Origin: an uncultured Clostridia bacterium
GTDB lineage: Bacteria > Bacillota > Clostridia > Oscillospirales > Ruminococcaceae
NCBI GenBank assembly: GCA_947389015.1
Contig: CANDVA010000009.1
Span: forward strand, 51,820 to 115,819
Reading direction: 5' to 3'
DNA: 64,000 nucleotides
Made by a program: the position numbers and the translations under genes. The number at the start of each line of letters is the position of its first letter. Position 1 is the stretch's first letter. Below the pieces are notes generated by a model. It was not told the DNA's origin, did not search any database, and was given only the letters and a program-made list of their open reading frames with translations. This document shows positions 38,185 to 43,305 of the stretch, one piece after another.

Positions 38185-38865
38185 TTGTATAAATACGAGA
38201 CCCATTTACACACCGCCGAGGGCAGCGCATGCGCGGTGACCTCCGCGGTTGACATGGTAAAAGCGCATAAGGACGCGGGTTATGACGGCATTTTTATCAC
38301 CGATCATTTTTTTAACGGCAACTCGGCAGTTCCTTGCGAGCTGCCATGGGCTGAAAGGATAGATCTGTACTGCATGGGCTATGAAAAGGCTCTGGAAGCG
38401 GGCTCAAAGGTAGGCATGGCGGTTTTTTTCGGGGTGGAATTTACTGTTCAGGGCGCCGACTTTCTGCTTTACGGCATTGACAAAAATTGGTTGTTTGAGC
38501 ACGAATTTTATCTCACAGTTGGCGATGAACGCGCATTATTTCGTCTTGTGCATGATGACGGCGGTTTTATCGTACACGCTCACCCATTCCGTGATTATCC
38601 GTATATTCCGCACATCAGCCTGTATCCGCACGATGTTGACGCTGTTGAATGGATCAACGCCAGTCACGGCAGGAACAGTGTCTTTAACGATCACGCAAAG
38701 CAATACGCCGAGATGTTCGGTTTGACGGTAACAGGCGGTTCGGACACGCATTCGGCAGATCGAATGTATGGGGGAGGTATTCTTGTTCCCGAAAAGATCA
38801 ACTGTCCCGAGGACTATTTAAGGCAGCTTAAAAACGGCTCTGTTGTGCCAATCGAGCCAAATTGA
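38185..38865 (+). CDS. PHP-domain metal-dependent phosphoesterase-like protein
   Basis: YKYETHLHTAEGSACAVTSAVDMVKAHKDAGYDGIFITDHFF...HAHPFRDYPYIPHISLYPHDVDAVEWINASHGRN...GGSDTHSADRMYGGGI; TTG start with SD cggagg. Confidence 0.88.
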   Translation: MYKYETHLHTAEGSACAVTSAVDMVKAHKDAGYDGIFITDHFFNGNSAVPCELPWAERIDLYCMGYEKALEAGSKVGMAVFFGVEFTVQGADFLLYGIDKNWLFEHEFYLTVGDERALFRLVHDDGGFIVHAHPFRDYPYIPHISLYPHDVDAVEWINASHGRNSVFNDHAKQYAEMFGLTVTGGSDTHSADRMYGGGILVPEKINCPEDYLRQLKNGSVVPIEPN

Positions 38866-40991
38866 ACGGAGAAAAGATGAACGGAAATTTTAGTTTGGCA
38901 AAGCGTGAAAATAATCCGCGGCGCGAGTTTATTATTGTAAATAAATTCCAGTCTAAACACTATCCCTCCGATCCCAAACAAACGGCATTGCATTGCGCTT
39001 TTCTTGGTAGGGAAATGGTCAAGAAATGCCCTCGGGGCAATTGCCTCGCAATAGTGTTTTCGGAAACGGCGGTCGGGATCGGCGCTCTTGCGGCTTCCGA
39101 ATTGGGCTCGCGTTGTTTTTTGCTCAGCACGACGCGTGAGGAACTGCCCGAATATTTTGAAAGGCTTTCTTTTGAAGAATCGCATAGTCATGCGCCTTTA
39201 CATACATTATGTACGCGCCCCGAAATTGATTTCGGGAATTTATCCCACGTGTTTCTGGTAGACGATGAGTTCACTACGGGAAACACCGCTGTTTCGCTTT
39301 ATAAAGCCATTTCAGCAAGGTGCAGCTGTCCGTTTACTGCCGTGTCGTTCATAGCGAGCAGCGAGAGCTGTAAGCGTTTGGAAGAAAACGGTATTAATAT
39401 TATTGCCGAGGAGCGTTTCGACGAAGCAAGTCTTATACAACCTCAACAAAAATTTGACGTGGATTTGGCGATAACAGATAAATTACCGGACTATGATATT
39501 ATCCTAAATTCGATTTTGGATATTCGTCTCGGGGTCAATTGCGGGGATTACTTTGACGAATGCAAACGACTTTGTAATACGGTTTTAGAACAATTAGCCG
39601 AGCCGATATCCGCAGCGCGTTCAATTGAGGTCGTCGGTACGGAGGAGCTATGTGTGCCGCCAATAACGCTTGGACTGTTTCTCTCCGAAAAGGGGATAAC
39701 CGTGCGGGTCCACGGCGTCACGCGAAGTCCCATGCTGCCGTCGCCGCAGGGGGATTATCCTATTCGTGAACGCGCCACGCTGACAAGCCTATACGATAAC
39801 CAGCGTAAGGTTTACATATATAATCGTTTCCGCAGCGATCTTACCATTGTTATGACAGACGCGGAAGATCCCGATAGCGGTGCGGTTTCACGGCTATGCG
39901 GAGCTTGCGGCGGCAGGCAGGTCGCGCTGGTGCGGTGGCGTGGGCATTCAATGCGCACTTCGCTTAACAATGCGGATTGTCGGCTGCTGCTCAAGGATAT
40001 TACGGGAATAATCGAACCAATGCCTCCAAGTGAACGAGAAACGCTTATTCACAAAGGCGTGCATTATTGTGAATTACTTCCTGCCGAGTACGAACCCTCC
40101 GAAGCGTATTTACAGCAATACAACGCGGGATTGCGGACATGGGGGAGGCAGACTGCGGAAGCGGCTCGCGCGGTCGCCGAGAAGATACTGGCGGCTAAAG
40201 GTGAAAACGTTGTCATTGTTTCGCTTGCTCGTGCGGGTACGCCTGTTGGGGTTTTGGTAAAACGCTATTTAAAGCGCTTTCACGGTATTGACTGTGCTCA
40301 TTATTCGGTGTCTGTAATTCGAGGGCGAGGGATTGACCGCAACGCTATGCGGTATATTCTGGCGCGGCATTCTGCCAAAAATATTCAATTTGTGGACGGC
40401 TGGACGGGCAAAGGTGCGATAACGAGGCAGTTAAATGAGGCGCTTGCAGAGTTCCCCGAGGTGGACAGTCGGCTCGCGGTGCTTGCCGACCCCGCGGGAG
40501 TATGCGAAATTTACGGTACACGCGACGATATTTTCATTCCGTGTTCGTGTCTGAACAGTGTGGTCTCGGGTTTGTTTTCGCGCACGGTACTTCGCTCCGA
40601 CTTGATTTCGGAAAGCGATTTTCACGGTGCGGCTTATTTTGAGAAACTGGAAAGATTTGACAAGCTCTATGAATTTATAGACTCTATTGAGCGAGAAATG
40701 GCTCTGCTGCCACCTTTCAAAGATTTTATTTGTGAACACGTCAATGGAGCGGGACTGGAGGAGACTCGCCAAATTGCACAAGAATTCGGTGTTTCCGATC
40801 TTAACCTTGTCAAGCCGAGCATTGGCGAAACGACACGTGTTTTACTCCGCAGAGTACCGCGGACGATACTTGTTAAATCGCTTGAAAGCCCTTTAACAAA
40901 GCATTTGCTTCAATTGGCTGAAGAAAAATCGGTACCCGTTCGTGAGTACCCGCTCAAGTGCTATGAAACTGTGGGGATCATTGATAATTAG
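38862..40991 (+). CDS. Multidomain phosphoribosyltransferase/TRSP - StiP (cysteine protease-like) - PELOTA-like fusion
   Basis: PRPP-binding-type VFLVDDEFTTGNTAVSLYKAI; TRSP motif HGVTRSPMLPS; StiP-like VVIVSLARAGTPVGVLVKRYLKRFHGIDCAHYSVSVIRGRGIDRNAMRYILARH...VDGWTGKGAITRQL; C-term TRVLLRRVPRTILVKSLESPLTKHLLQLAEEKSVPVREYPLKCYETVGIID. Confidence 0.8.
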   Translation: MNGEKMNGNFSLAKRENNPRREFIIVNKFQSKHYPSDPKQTALHCAFLGREMVKKCPRGNCLAIVFSETAVGIGALAASELGSRCFLLSTTREELPEYFERLSFEESHSHAPLHTLCTRPEIDFGNLSHVFLVDDEFTTGNTAVSLYKAISARCSCPFTAVSFIASSESCKRLEENGINIIAEERFDEASLIQPQQKFDVDLAITDKLPDYDIILNSILDIRLGVNCGDYFDECKRLCNTVLEQLAEPISAARSIEVVGTEELCVPPITLGLFLSEKGITVRVHGVTRSPMLPSPQGDYPIRERATLTSLYDNQRKVYIYNRFRSDLTIVMTDAEDPDSGAVSRLCGACGGRQVALVRWRGHSMRTSLNNADCRLLLKDITGIIEPMPPSERETLIHKGVHYCELLPAEYEPSEAYLQQYNAGLRTWGRQTAEAARAVAEKILAAKGENVVIVSLARAGTPVGVLVKRYLKRFHGIDCAHYSVSVIRGRGIDRNAMRYILARHSAKNIQFVDGWTGKGAITRQLNEALAEFPEVDSRLAVLADPAGVCEIYGTRDDIFIPCSCLNSVVSGLFSRTVLRSDLISESDFHGAAYFEKLERFDKLYEFIDSIEREMALLPPFKDFICEHVNGAGLEETRQIAQEFGVSDLNLVKPSIGETTRVLLRRVPRTILVKSLESPLTKHLLQLAEEKSVPVREYPLKCYETVGIIDN

Positions 40992-41020: not shown

Positions 41021-42268
41021 ATGACTGCATTTACAACAGCGGATATTCTGCTTCCGAGATTGTCCGCCGAGGGGATGAGCAAGTGGGCGGTTGTCGCGTG
41101 CGATCAGTACACGGGCGAGCCCGAATACTGGGAAAAGGTGCGCGGGATCGTCGGAGAAGCACCCTCCGCACTTGATCTGATACTTCCCGAGGCATATCTT
41201 GACAAGCTCGACTGCGGAGAACGTATTGCTACAATTCATGAAAATATGGCAAATTGCATGAAGAATGATTTGTTCAATGTGTATAACGACTGCTTTATAC
41301 TGACAAAGCGCACACAGGCTGATGGCAGGCTGCGTGTTGGCTTGGTTGGCGCTATTGATCTGGAGATGTACGACTACAATAAGGGGAGCAAGTCACAGGT
41401 TCGTGCGACCGAGGCTACCGTTGCGTCGCGAATTCCCCCGAGGGTAAAGATCCGCATGAACGCGCCGCTTGAGCTGCCGCATATCATGATCCTGATCGAT
41501 GATGTTCAAAATACCGTTATTGATCCGCTGCTAGAGAAAAGATTACAGACTGTATACGATTTTGAGCTTATGCAGAACGGCGGACATTTGGAGGGCGCGA
41601 TAGTCGATGGAGACAACGCTCGCGAGGTTTTAGCGGCTCTTGACAAGCTCGCCGATAAGAACGCGTTCAACAGGCGTTACGGTCTGCAAAACGAGGACGT
41701 TCTGCTCTATGCTATGGGCGACGGCAACCACTCGCTCGCAACAGCAAAAGAGTGCTACGAACAGAAAAAACGCGCAAACAGTCCCGACGCGCAGCTTGCC
41801 CGCTACGCACTTGTCGAGGTGGTAAACCTCCACTCGCCCGCACTGGAGTTTGAGGCTATACACAGAGTAATCACTGATGTGAATATCGACGACCTTATGT
41901 GCAAAATGACGAAAGCGCTCGGGCTTGGGAAAAGCGACGAACAGAAATTCTCAGTTGTCGTCGGAGATAAAACGCATACATTCGGCATAACAAAACCGAC
42001 ATCCAACCTCACAGTCGGTTCTCTTCAAACGTTTCTTGATGAGTATTTGCATGAGAATGACGGCAGAATCGACTACATACACGGCGAGGACGTTGTCCGC
42101 AGACTGTGCTCGGACGGCTCCGCGATTGGTTTTCTGTTGCCGTCGATGAAGAAATCGGAACTGTTCCCGACTGTTATCAAGGATGGAGCGCTCCCGCGAA
42201 AGACGTTTAGTATGGGGCACGCGCATGATAAACGGTTTTACTGCGAAGCTAGAATAATCAGAAAATAA
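41021..42268 (+). CDS. DUF1015 family protein (SerK-related fold)
   Basis: ILLPRLSAEGMSKWAVVACDQYTGEPEYWEKV...; LYAMGDGNHSLATAKECYE. ATG 41021 with SD aaggag. Confidence 0.88.
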   Translation: MTAFTTADILLPRLSAEGMSKWAVVACDQYTGEPEYWEKVRGIVGEAPSALDLILPEAYLDKLDCGERIATIHENMANCMKNDLFNVYNDCFILTKRTQADGRLRVGLVGAIDLEMYDYNKGSKSQVRATEATVASRIPPRVKIRMNAPLELPHIMILIDDVQNTVIDPLLEKRLQTVYDFELMQNGGHLEGAIVDGDNAREVLAALDKLADKNAFNRRYGLQNEDVLLYAMGDGNHSLATAKECYEQKKRANSPDAQLARYALVEVVNLHSPALEFEAIHRVITDVNIDDLMCKMTKALGLGKSDEQKFSVVVGDKTHTFGITKPTSNLTVGSLQTFLDEYLHENDGRIDYIHGEDVVRRLCSDGSAIGFLLPSMKKSELFPTVIKDGALPRKTFSMGHAHDKRFYCEARIIRK

Positions 42269-42294: not shown

Positions 42295-42708
42295 ATGTGG
42301 TTTGTTTATGCTTTGTTATCGGCGGTTTTTGCGGCGCTTACCTCAATTCTGGCAAAGGTTGGGATTGACGGCGTGAATTCAAAGCTTGCTACTGCTATCC
42401 GCACCGTTGTCGTGGTCGCAATGGCTTGGGGAATGGTATTTATAACCAACACGCAGGGCGGGCTGTCGGAAATACCGCGGAAAAGCTGGATATTCCTGAT
42501 ACTGTCGGGGCTGGCAACGGGCGGCTCGTGGCTGTGCTACTACCGCGCGGTGCAGCTCGGCGAAGTGTCTAAGGTCGCGCCGATAGACAAGCTCAGCGTG
42601 GTATTTACGATGGTGCTGGCGGCAATTTTTCTGCATGAGGAGCTGACTGTCAAGACGATTATCGGCTGTCTGCTTATTGCTGCGGGAACGCTTATTATGG
42701 TGCTTTGA
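42295..42708 (+). CDS. EamA/DMT-type transporter, half-size (137 aa)
   Basis: MWFVYALLSAVFAALTSILAKVGIDGVNSKLATAIRTVVVVAMAWGMVF...IDKLSVVFTMVLAAIFLHEELTVKTIIGCLLIAAGTLIMVL. Confidence 0.92.
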   Translation: MWFVYALLSAVFAALTSILAKVGIDGVNSKLATAIRTVVVVAMAWGMVFITNTQGGLSEIPRKSWIFLILSGLATGGSWLCYYRAVQLGEVSKVAPIDKLSVVFTMVLAAIFLHEELTVKTIIGCLLIAAGTLIMVL

Positions 42709-42717
42709 GGTGATATT

Positions 42718-43305
42718 ATGAAATACAAATGTCCGTGCTGCGGATTTTATACGTTTGACGAACCGCTTGACAACGCGATCGGGGATATCTGCCCCGTGTG
42801 CTACTGGGAGATAGACGTGTTTGTCCGCGATGAGGATAAGCCGAGCGGAGCAAATCATGGACTGTCGCTGCGGAAATGCCGCGATAACTATTTCAGTTAC
42901 GGCGCGTGTACCGAGGAAATGGCGAAGTACACCCGCAGTCCGCTTGGCAGCGAGCTCAGCGCCGACGGCAAGCGGCGGAAGTTTTTTGAAACCGGTATTG
43001 ACGGCGGCTGCTACGACGAATTTGTCAAGGGAAAATGGGACGGCGAAACACATTGGAGCGCCGAATCTCTTTTTCTTGACGACGATTGGTTCGACATACT
43101 CGGATTATATAAAAATATTTTCAGTAAGGTCTTTGAGGTATACAACCGCTGGGGTCCCAATCGGATCACGCGTGAGGACTGGAATAAGATTTACGAGCTT
43201 TCCAAAAAATGCGGCGGCGCGGTCGCGGAACTGTTCGACGAGCTTGCTCCGTGGGCAGAGGAAAATTTTGTCGAGTTTGAAGAGTTCTGGATGCTGGGAG
43301 TTTAG
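42718..43305 (+). CDS. CPCC-type cysteine-rich domain protein
   Basis: MKYKCPCCGFYTFDEPLDNAIGDICPVCYWEID. Confidence 0.85.
   Translation: MKYKCPCCGFYTFDEPLDNAIGDICPVCYWEIDVFVRDEDKPSGANHGLSLRKCRDNYFSYGACTEEMAKYTRSPLGSELSADGKRRKFFETGIDGGCYDEFVKGKWDGETHWSAESLFLDDDWFDILGLYKNIFSKVFEVYNRWGPNRITREDWNKIYELSKKCGGAVAELFDELAPWAEENFVEFEEFWMLGV

Follow-up and report, generated by a model that had tools for sequence, protein, structure and literature searches.

On the forward strand of the window, i.e. the whole 64,000-nucleotide stretch of DNA analysed here, a series of NadE-like, unknown, HepI-like, polA and PHP genes leads to a single gene in which PRTase_2, TRSP, StiP and PELOTA_1 domains are fused, followed by a DUF1015 gene (Table 1). 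The open reading frame carrying the fusion is uninterrupted between positions 38862 and 40991, spanning 709 codons when counted from a TTG, and the opposite strand of this interval shows many stops. A Shine-Dalgarno sequence (GGAGAA) lies 5' of the ATG at position 38877 and is shared by three relatives (L109, L102 and L098), and the upstream TTG is changed to TCG in L098. Based on these comparisons, translation probably starts at this ATG, yielding a protein of 704 aa; the residue numbers of domains and motifs used hereafter follow the 709-aa reading. Downstream of DUF1015, positions 42295–42708 carry an EamA-type transporter ORF of just 137 aa, in which the EamA repeat occurs once, and positions 42718–43305 a CPCC cysteine-rich protein (PF14206) and then a PAS-domain protein. 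This latter pair recurs downstream of DUF1015 in fused relatives.

Table 1. Genes, domains and motifs at the fused locus (positions in the window; residues in the 709-aa reading).
Feature	Position	Strand	Details
PHP-family gene	38185..38865	+	local neighbour, not an obligate partner
Fused gene PRTase_2-TRSP-StiP-PELOTA_1	38877..40991	+	704 aa from ATG 38877; 709 aa from TTG 38862 (first-pass annotation)
PRTase_2	38889..39326	+	residues 10-155, PF15609, E=3.3e-32
PRPP-binding loop DDEFTTGNT of PRTase_2	39261..39287	+	residues 134-142
TRSP domain	39579..39842	+	residues 240-327, PF12500, E=1e-12
StiP domain, predicted PRTase fold	39960..40688	+	residues 367-609, PF11202, E=1.3e-92; AF2 and Foldseek
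StiP PRPP-loop-like motif DGWTGKG	40395..40415	+	residues 512-518
PELOTA_1 (L7Ae-like), predicted RNA-binding domain	40752..40985	+	residues 631-708, PF15608, E=2.8e-28
GETTRVLLRR within PELOTA_1	40824-40853	+	
DUF1015 gene	41021..42268	+	ATG start, frame open from 40997; local background

All four Pfam domains were called above their gathering scores. The first-pass annotation of this DNA had proposed a one-chain PRTase/TRSP-StiP-PELOTA fusion of at least three modules, a description that holds: the motifs it quoted were all found, and Pfam divides the chain into four domains rather than three. Motif conservation was scored over 19–20 fused and 57 split rows. The PRPP-binding loop of PRTase_2 is conserved at D134, D135, T139, G140 and T142 in both the fused and split forms, as is the TRSP motif (residues 287–290), and in the DGWTGKG motif of StiP, a variant of the acidic/TG motif of PRPP loops, six of the seven residues (D512, G513, W514, G516, K517 and G518) are invariant across 77 sequences. 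The NCBIfam models gave no match to the fused protein, and the PADLOC anti-phage defence models no defence-system match, the only hit being PRTase_III-A (E = 0.0018, 16 bits).

The AF2 model of the whole fused chain, built on a 52-row alignment, reached a pLDDT of 90.5 and a pTM of 0.85, and its top Foldseek matches in the PDB were adenine PRTases, with a TM of about 0.7 by target; the Foldseek output names no region, and the aligned part is likely PRTase_2. Modelled alone, the StiP domain (pLDDT 94.2) matched PyrR, HGPRT and XGPRT with probabilities near 1.00, with PurR among the matches too, and its similarity to PRTase structures was modest, with TMt values of about 0.5–0.6 and an rmsd near 10 Å for several of them. 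In addition, a profile search of PDB sequences returned weak matches to orotate PRTases, hypoxanthine PRTases and L7Ae chains. These models predict StiP to be a second PRTase-fold domain in the chain, and both the PRTase_2-TRSP half and the StiP half to adopt type I phosphoribosyltransferase folds, each with its PRPP-loop motif intact. The first-pass annotation had opposed its own proposal to a chain of only duplicated PRTase folds lacking any StiP or PELOTA relationship: the PRTase fold is indeed predicted twice, whereas StiP and PELOTA are both found by Pfam, and because StiP itself is predicted to be PRTase-fold, the two descriptions are not mutually exclusive. The fused protein resembles type I phosphoribosyltransferases (adenine PRTase, HGPRT, XGPRT, PyrR) in its predicted fold and PRPP-loop motif, but differs from them by its two PRTase copies, its TRSP and L7Ae-like domains, and an identity of 10–22% in the structural matches.

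The fusion was found within one gut-type Clostridia genus, of which 43 genomes were classified as fused (18), ambiguous at contig edges (2; G019 and G027), split (12) or StiP-less (11). Since 18 genomes of the genus carry the frame uninterrupted, at 41–88% domain identity, the frameshift or assembly fusion considered at first pass is excluded as its source. In the StiP-PELOTA tree, the fused rows of the genus formed one clade (100 SH-aLRT), and two apparent split rows inside it (L107 and L115) were discarded, both being contig-edge fragments. The PRTase_2-TRSP tree requires two changes of state. Besides this clade, a second fusion origin was recovered in Paenibacillus xylaniclasticus (L050, 864 aa), nested among Cohnella split pairs. 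By contrast with the window gene, which has the same four domains, this independently derived fusion sits within a ter operon with TerD, TerC, CitE, HAD and ATP-grasp genes. A single-HSP match in Rhizobium etli was rejected as a further fusion, since it corresponds to two genes about 115 bp apart. Among 399 genomes sampled from the phylum, 22 carried StiP, and a frame longer than 440 aa was found only in the window's genome. Given the clade within the genus and the separate Paenibacillus origin, sequence comparison supports a fusion that is real, clade-wide in part of the genus and convergent, with at least two independent origins.

The normal state of the module is two adjacent genes, PRTase_2-TRSP and StiP-PELOTA. 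On plasmids, 2,566 matching records were obtained, all below 60% identity, and among the matches listed the two genes are separate. For instance, the row of the Lactococcus plasmid pFI430 comprises CitE, PRTase, StiP, a hypothetical gene, YceG, TelA and three TerD, with an ATP-grasp gene in addition at the Klebsiella pLH71-A locus. Chromosomes of Clostridia and Bacilli carry CitE and/or ATP-grasp, PRTase_2-TRSP, StiP-PELOTA and HAD, often adjoined by TerD, YceG or TelA, and an unannotated, putative "phage" record (MT836648) holds the split genes beside CitE-like, YceG-like and TelA-like ORFs. Four genomes (G002, G005, G007 and G010) have CitE and TerD on one contig and ATP-grasp, PRTase, StiP and HAD on another, the module being divided in two with both parts retained. 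Within the genus, two genomes (G018, L101, and G062, L163) bear a very divergent split StiP lineage with CitE and HAD present and no Ter ATP-grasp detected, which suggests a separate acquisition.

These two genomes also bear on the immediate neighbours of the fused gene, as they show polA, PHP and DUF1015 in succession with nothing in between, while G064 shows polA, the fused gene and DUF1015 with PHP missing. PHP occurs in 14 of 18 fused, 4 of 12 split and 5 of 11 StiP-less genomes. As the site exists without the fusion in G018 and G062, the fusion exists there without PHP in G064, and PHP is found in StiP-less genomes, both PHP and DUF1015 are background, and neither was retained as a functional partner; the coupling to a PHP phosphoesterase proposed at first pass is abandoned on the same grounds. 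Either insertion of the fused gene at the polA-DUF1015 site or its loss in G018 and G062 would account for this difference.

The distribution of a HAD phosphatase follows a different pattern. It was detected in all 18 fused and all 12 split genomes, in both ambiguous ones and in none of the 11 StiP-less genomes, a count that leaves out a 47-residue scrap in G024. In the window's own genome, a HAD-IIB phosphatase is encoded at C9:47172-47897 (L147:9173-9901), about 4 kb upstream of the window start, and is 53–55% identical to a linked HAD of a fused relative. It lies directly behind ahcY (adenosylhomocysteinase), with almost no gap, an order repeated in several fused relatives, which raises the possibility of a connection with the SAM cycle. 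HAD stands beside the fused or edge-truncated gene in eight genomes; in the window's clade, it is unlinked from the fused gene and located just behind ahcY in most cases with readable context. In other StiP-bearing Bacillota sampled, HAD was within the fetched flank of StiP in 18 of 21. HAD and StiP distances were correlated across 29 genomes (r = 0.89), but shared species history accounts for much of this value and no weight is placed on it. Judging from these gene distributions, the retention of HAD despite its lost linkage is the strongest sign that it may work jointly with the fused protein.

The other components of the module are variable. CitE (PF15617) was absent from the 18 fused and 11 StiP-less genomes and present in 12 of 12 split genomes, and no such C-C bond lyase was found in the window's own genome. 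Protein searches detected the Ter ATP-grasp in 9 of 12 split genomes and in none of the 18 fused or 11 StiP-less ones, leaving out a 25%-identity match in G030; in the window's genome, only weak matches (PF15632) were obtained, in frames of 1069–1080 aa, the size of carbamoyl-phosphate synthase. As the genomes are related, these co-occurrence counts are not phylogenetically independent and the p-values of the Fisher tests are descriptive only, at least two separate StiP lineages in the split module of the genus providing some independence. Because some assemblies are incomplete, an individual absence may be spurious, but the pattern holds over numerous genomes more than 90% complete.

The absence of ter genes reported at first pass applies to the locus, where we likewise observed no TerD/TerC cluster, nor CitE or ATP-grasp, but not to the genome as a whole: a genome-wide search recovered three TerD genes, TelA and YceG on other contigs (ter genes being seen on C6 and C17), and no Ter ATP-grasp. 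TerD occurs in 43 of 43 genomes of the genus, with or without StiP, and was discarded as an in-genus partner for want of any association. A separate ter-like cluster on C6 (4281-16467; L005) encodes a VWA protein, a PP2C phosphatase-like ORF, a kinase-like ORF, a P-type cation ATPase, TerD, YceG and TelA, as well as a 411-aa protein combining a C-terminal TerD with an unusual N-terminal part. No PRTase, StiP or CitE was found in this cluster.

The closest known system is the Ter-associated biosynthetic module of plasmid and chromosomal ter loci, composed of PRTase_2-TRSP, StiP-PELOTA, HAD, a CitE-like lyase and ATP-grasp. The window's protein shares with it the four domains, ordered as in the Gram-positive gene pair, and a genomic HAD, which supports the link to the predicted nucleoside-like pathway drawn at first pass; it departs from it by one gene in place of two, the lack of CitE and of the Ter ATP-grasp, a location outside any ter cluster and a HAD placed behind ahcY. 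The predicted product of the uncharacterised Ter-associated pathway is a nucleoside-like stress compound. This metabolite was predicted in 2012 and is later described, in passages of PMC7824862 and PMC8115787, as predicted only. According to PMC7824862, PRTases and HAD make a nucleoside or nucleotide signal, which may be detected by TerB/TerD, with TerC/TelA providing the response. Our literature searches turned up no experimental work on either StiP or the four-domain fusion.

We favour, with moderate confidence, the reading in which the fused protein is a bifunctional, PRPP-dependent enzyme ending in an L7Ae-like, putatively RNA-binding tail, and forms with HAD a pared-down core of the predicted nucleoside-like pathway. 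The two halves of the Ter-associated module would have been fused once at the base of the fused clade of the genus, making of the PRTase_2-TRSP and StiP halves a putative single-chain bifunctional enzyme. This enzyme would most likely attach phosphoribose to one or several base-like acceptors, after which the HAD-IIB phosphatase, whose gene lies at another site in the genome, may remove the phosphate to release a nucleoside-like product, the PELOTA_1 tail acting as a candidate RNA-binding domain. Because the CitE-like lyase and the Ter ATP-grasp are absent from the fused form, the lineage may use a housekeeping acceptor or omit a tailoring step.

Among the rival explanations, the one that we take most seriously, while judging it unlikely, is an RNA-directed reaction, in which the L7Ae-like tail would set both PRTase domains on structured RNA (e.g. 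a kink-turn) for a base or ribosyl modification on RNA, with no free nucleoside. All complete loci surveyed have PELOTA_1 joined to StiP, the residues K651, E656, R659, R663 and R664 of PELOTA_1 are conserved, and the domain has been modelled on L7Ae with kink-turn RNA (PMC5571608). The C-terminal domain resembles L7Ae-type RNA-binding proteins in family and by weak profile similarity, but differs from them in belonging to the bacterial PELOTA_1 family and in being joined to a PRTase. Against this reading, the partner that is always present, a HAD-IIB phosphatase, is Cof/SPP-like and belongs to a family acting on small phosphates. Less probable still is a regulatory role, in which the protein would be no enzyme at all, but a PRPP- or nucleotide-sensing RNA-binding control protein similar to PyrR or PurR. 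The best structural matches of StiP are to PyrR, with PurR also among the matches, and a domain of RNA-binding type is present; the PyrR matches are however generic for the fold, and two PRTase domains that each keep the PRPP-loop motif, together with a strictly co-occurring phosphatase, suggest chemistry.

That the gene could be a decaying, partly non-functional remnant of a ter module, stripped of CitE, of ATP-grasp and of its linkage to ter genes, appears very improbable: CitE and ATP-grasp are missing from 18 of 18 fused genomes and the module is wholly absent from 11 genomes of the genus, but the frame is open, the motifs are kept across divergent fused relatives and HAD is retained in all 18 even when unlinked. 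Finally, the cysteine protease implied by the PF11202 and NCBI name "cysteine protease StiP" is hardly credible and was rejected as the default identity of StiP, since Cys563, the catalytic candidate, which is largely conserved along with His480, gives way to Leu, Ile or Val in 10 of the 77 homologues while DGW.GKG is invariant, no other Cys is conserved in the StiP half of the window's protein, and the predicted fold is that of a PRTase.

Returning to the bifunctional enzyme, a fusion arising at least twice speaks for joint action of the two PRTase halves. Furthermore, the fused lineage sets the constant partner (HAD) apart from the variable ones (CitE, ATP-grasp, ter proteins and PHP), and narrows the candidate core of the pathway to two proteins, with the PRTase halves fixed at 1:1, which makes it a practical target for in vitro reconstitution. 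Tentatively, and at somewhat less than even chances, the fused protein and one HAD may constitute a complete, ter-independent two-protein pathway for a nucleoside-like metabolite, whole or truncated; if true, CitE, ATP-grasp and the ter proteins would be accessory to this pathway rather than part of its core.
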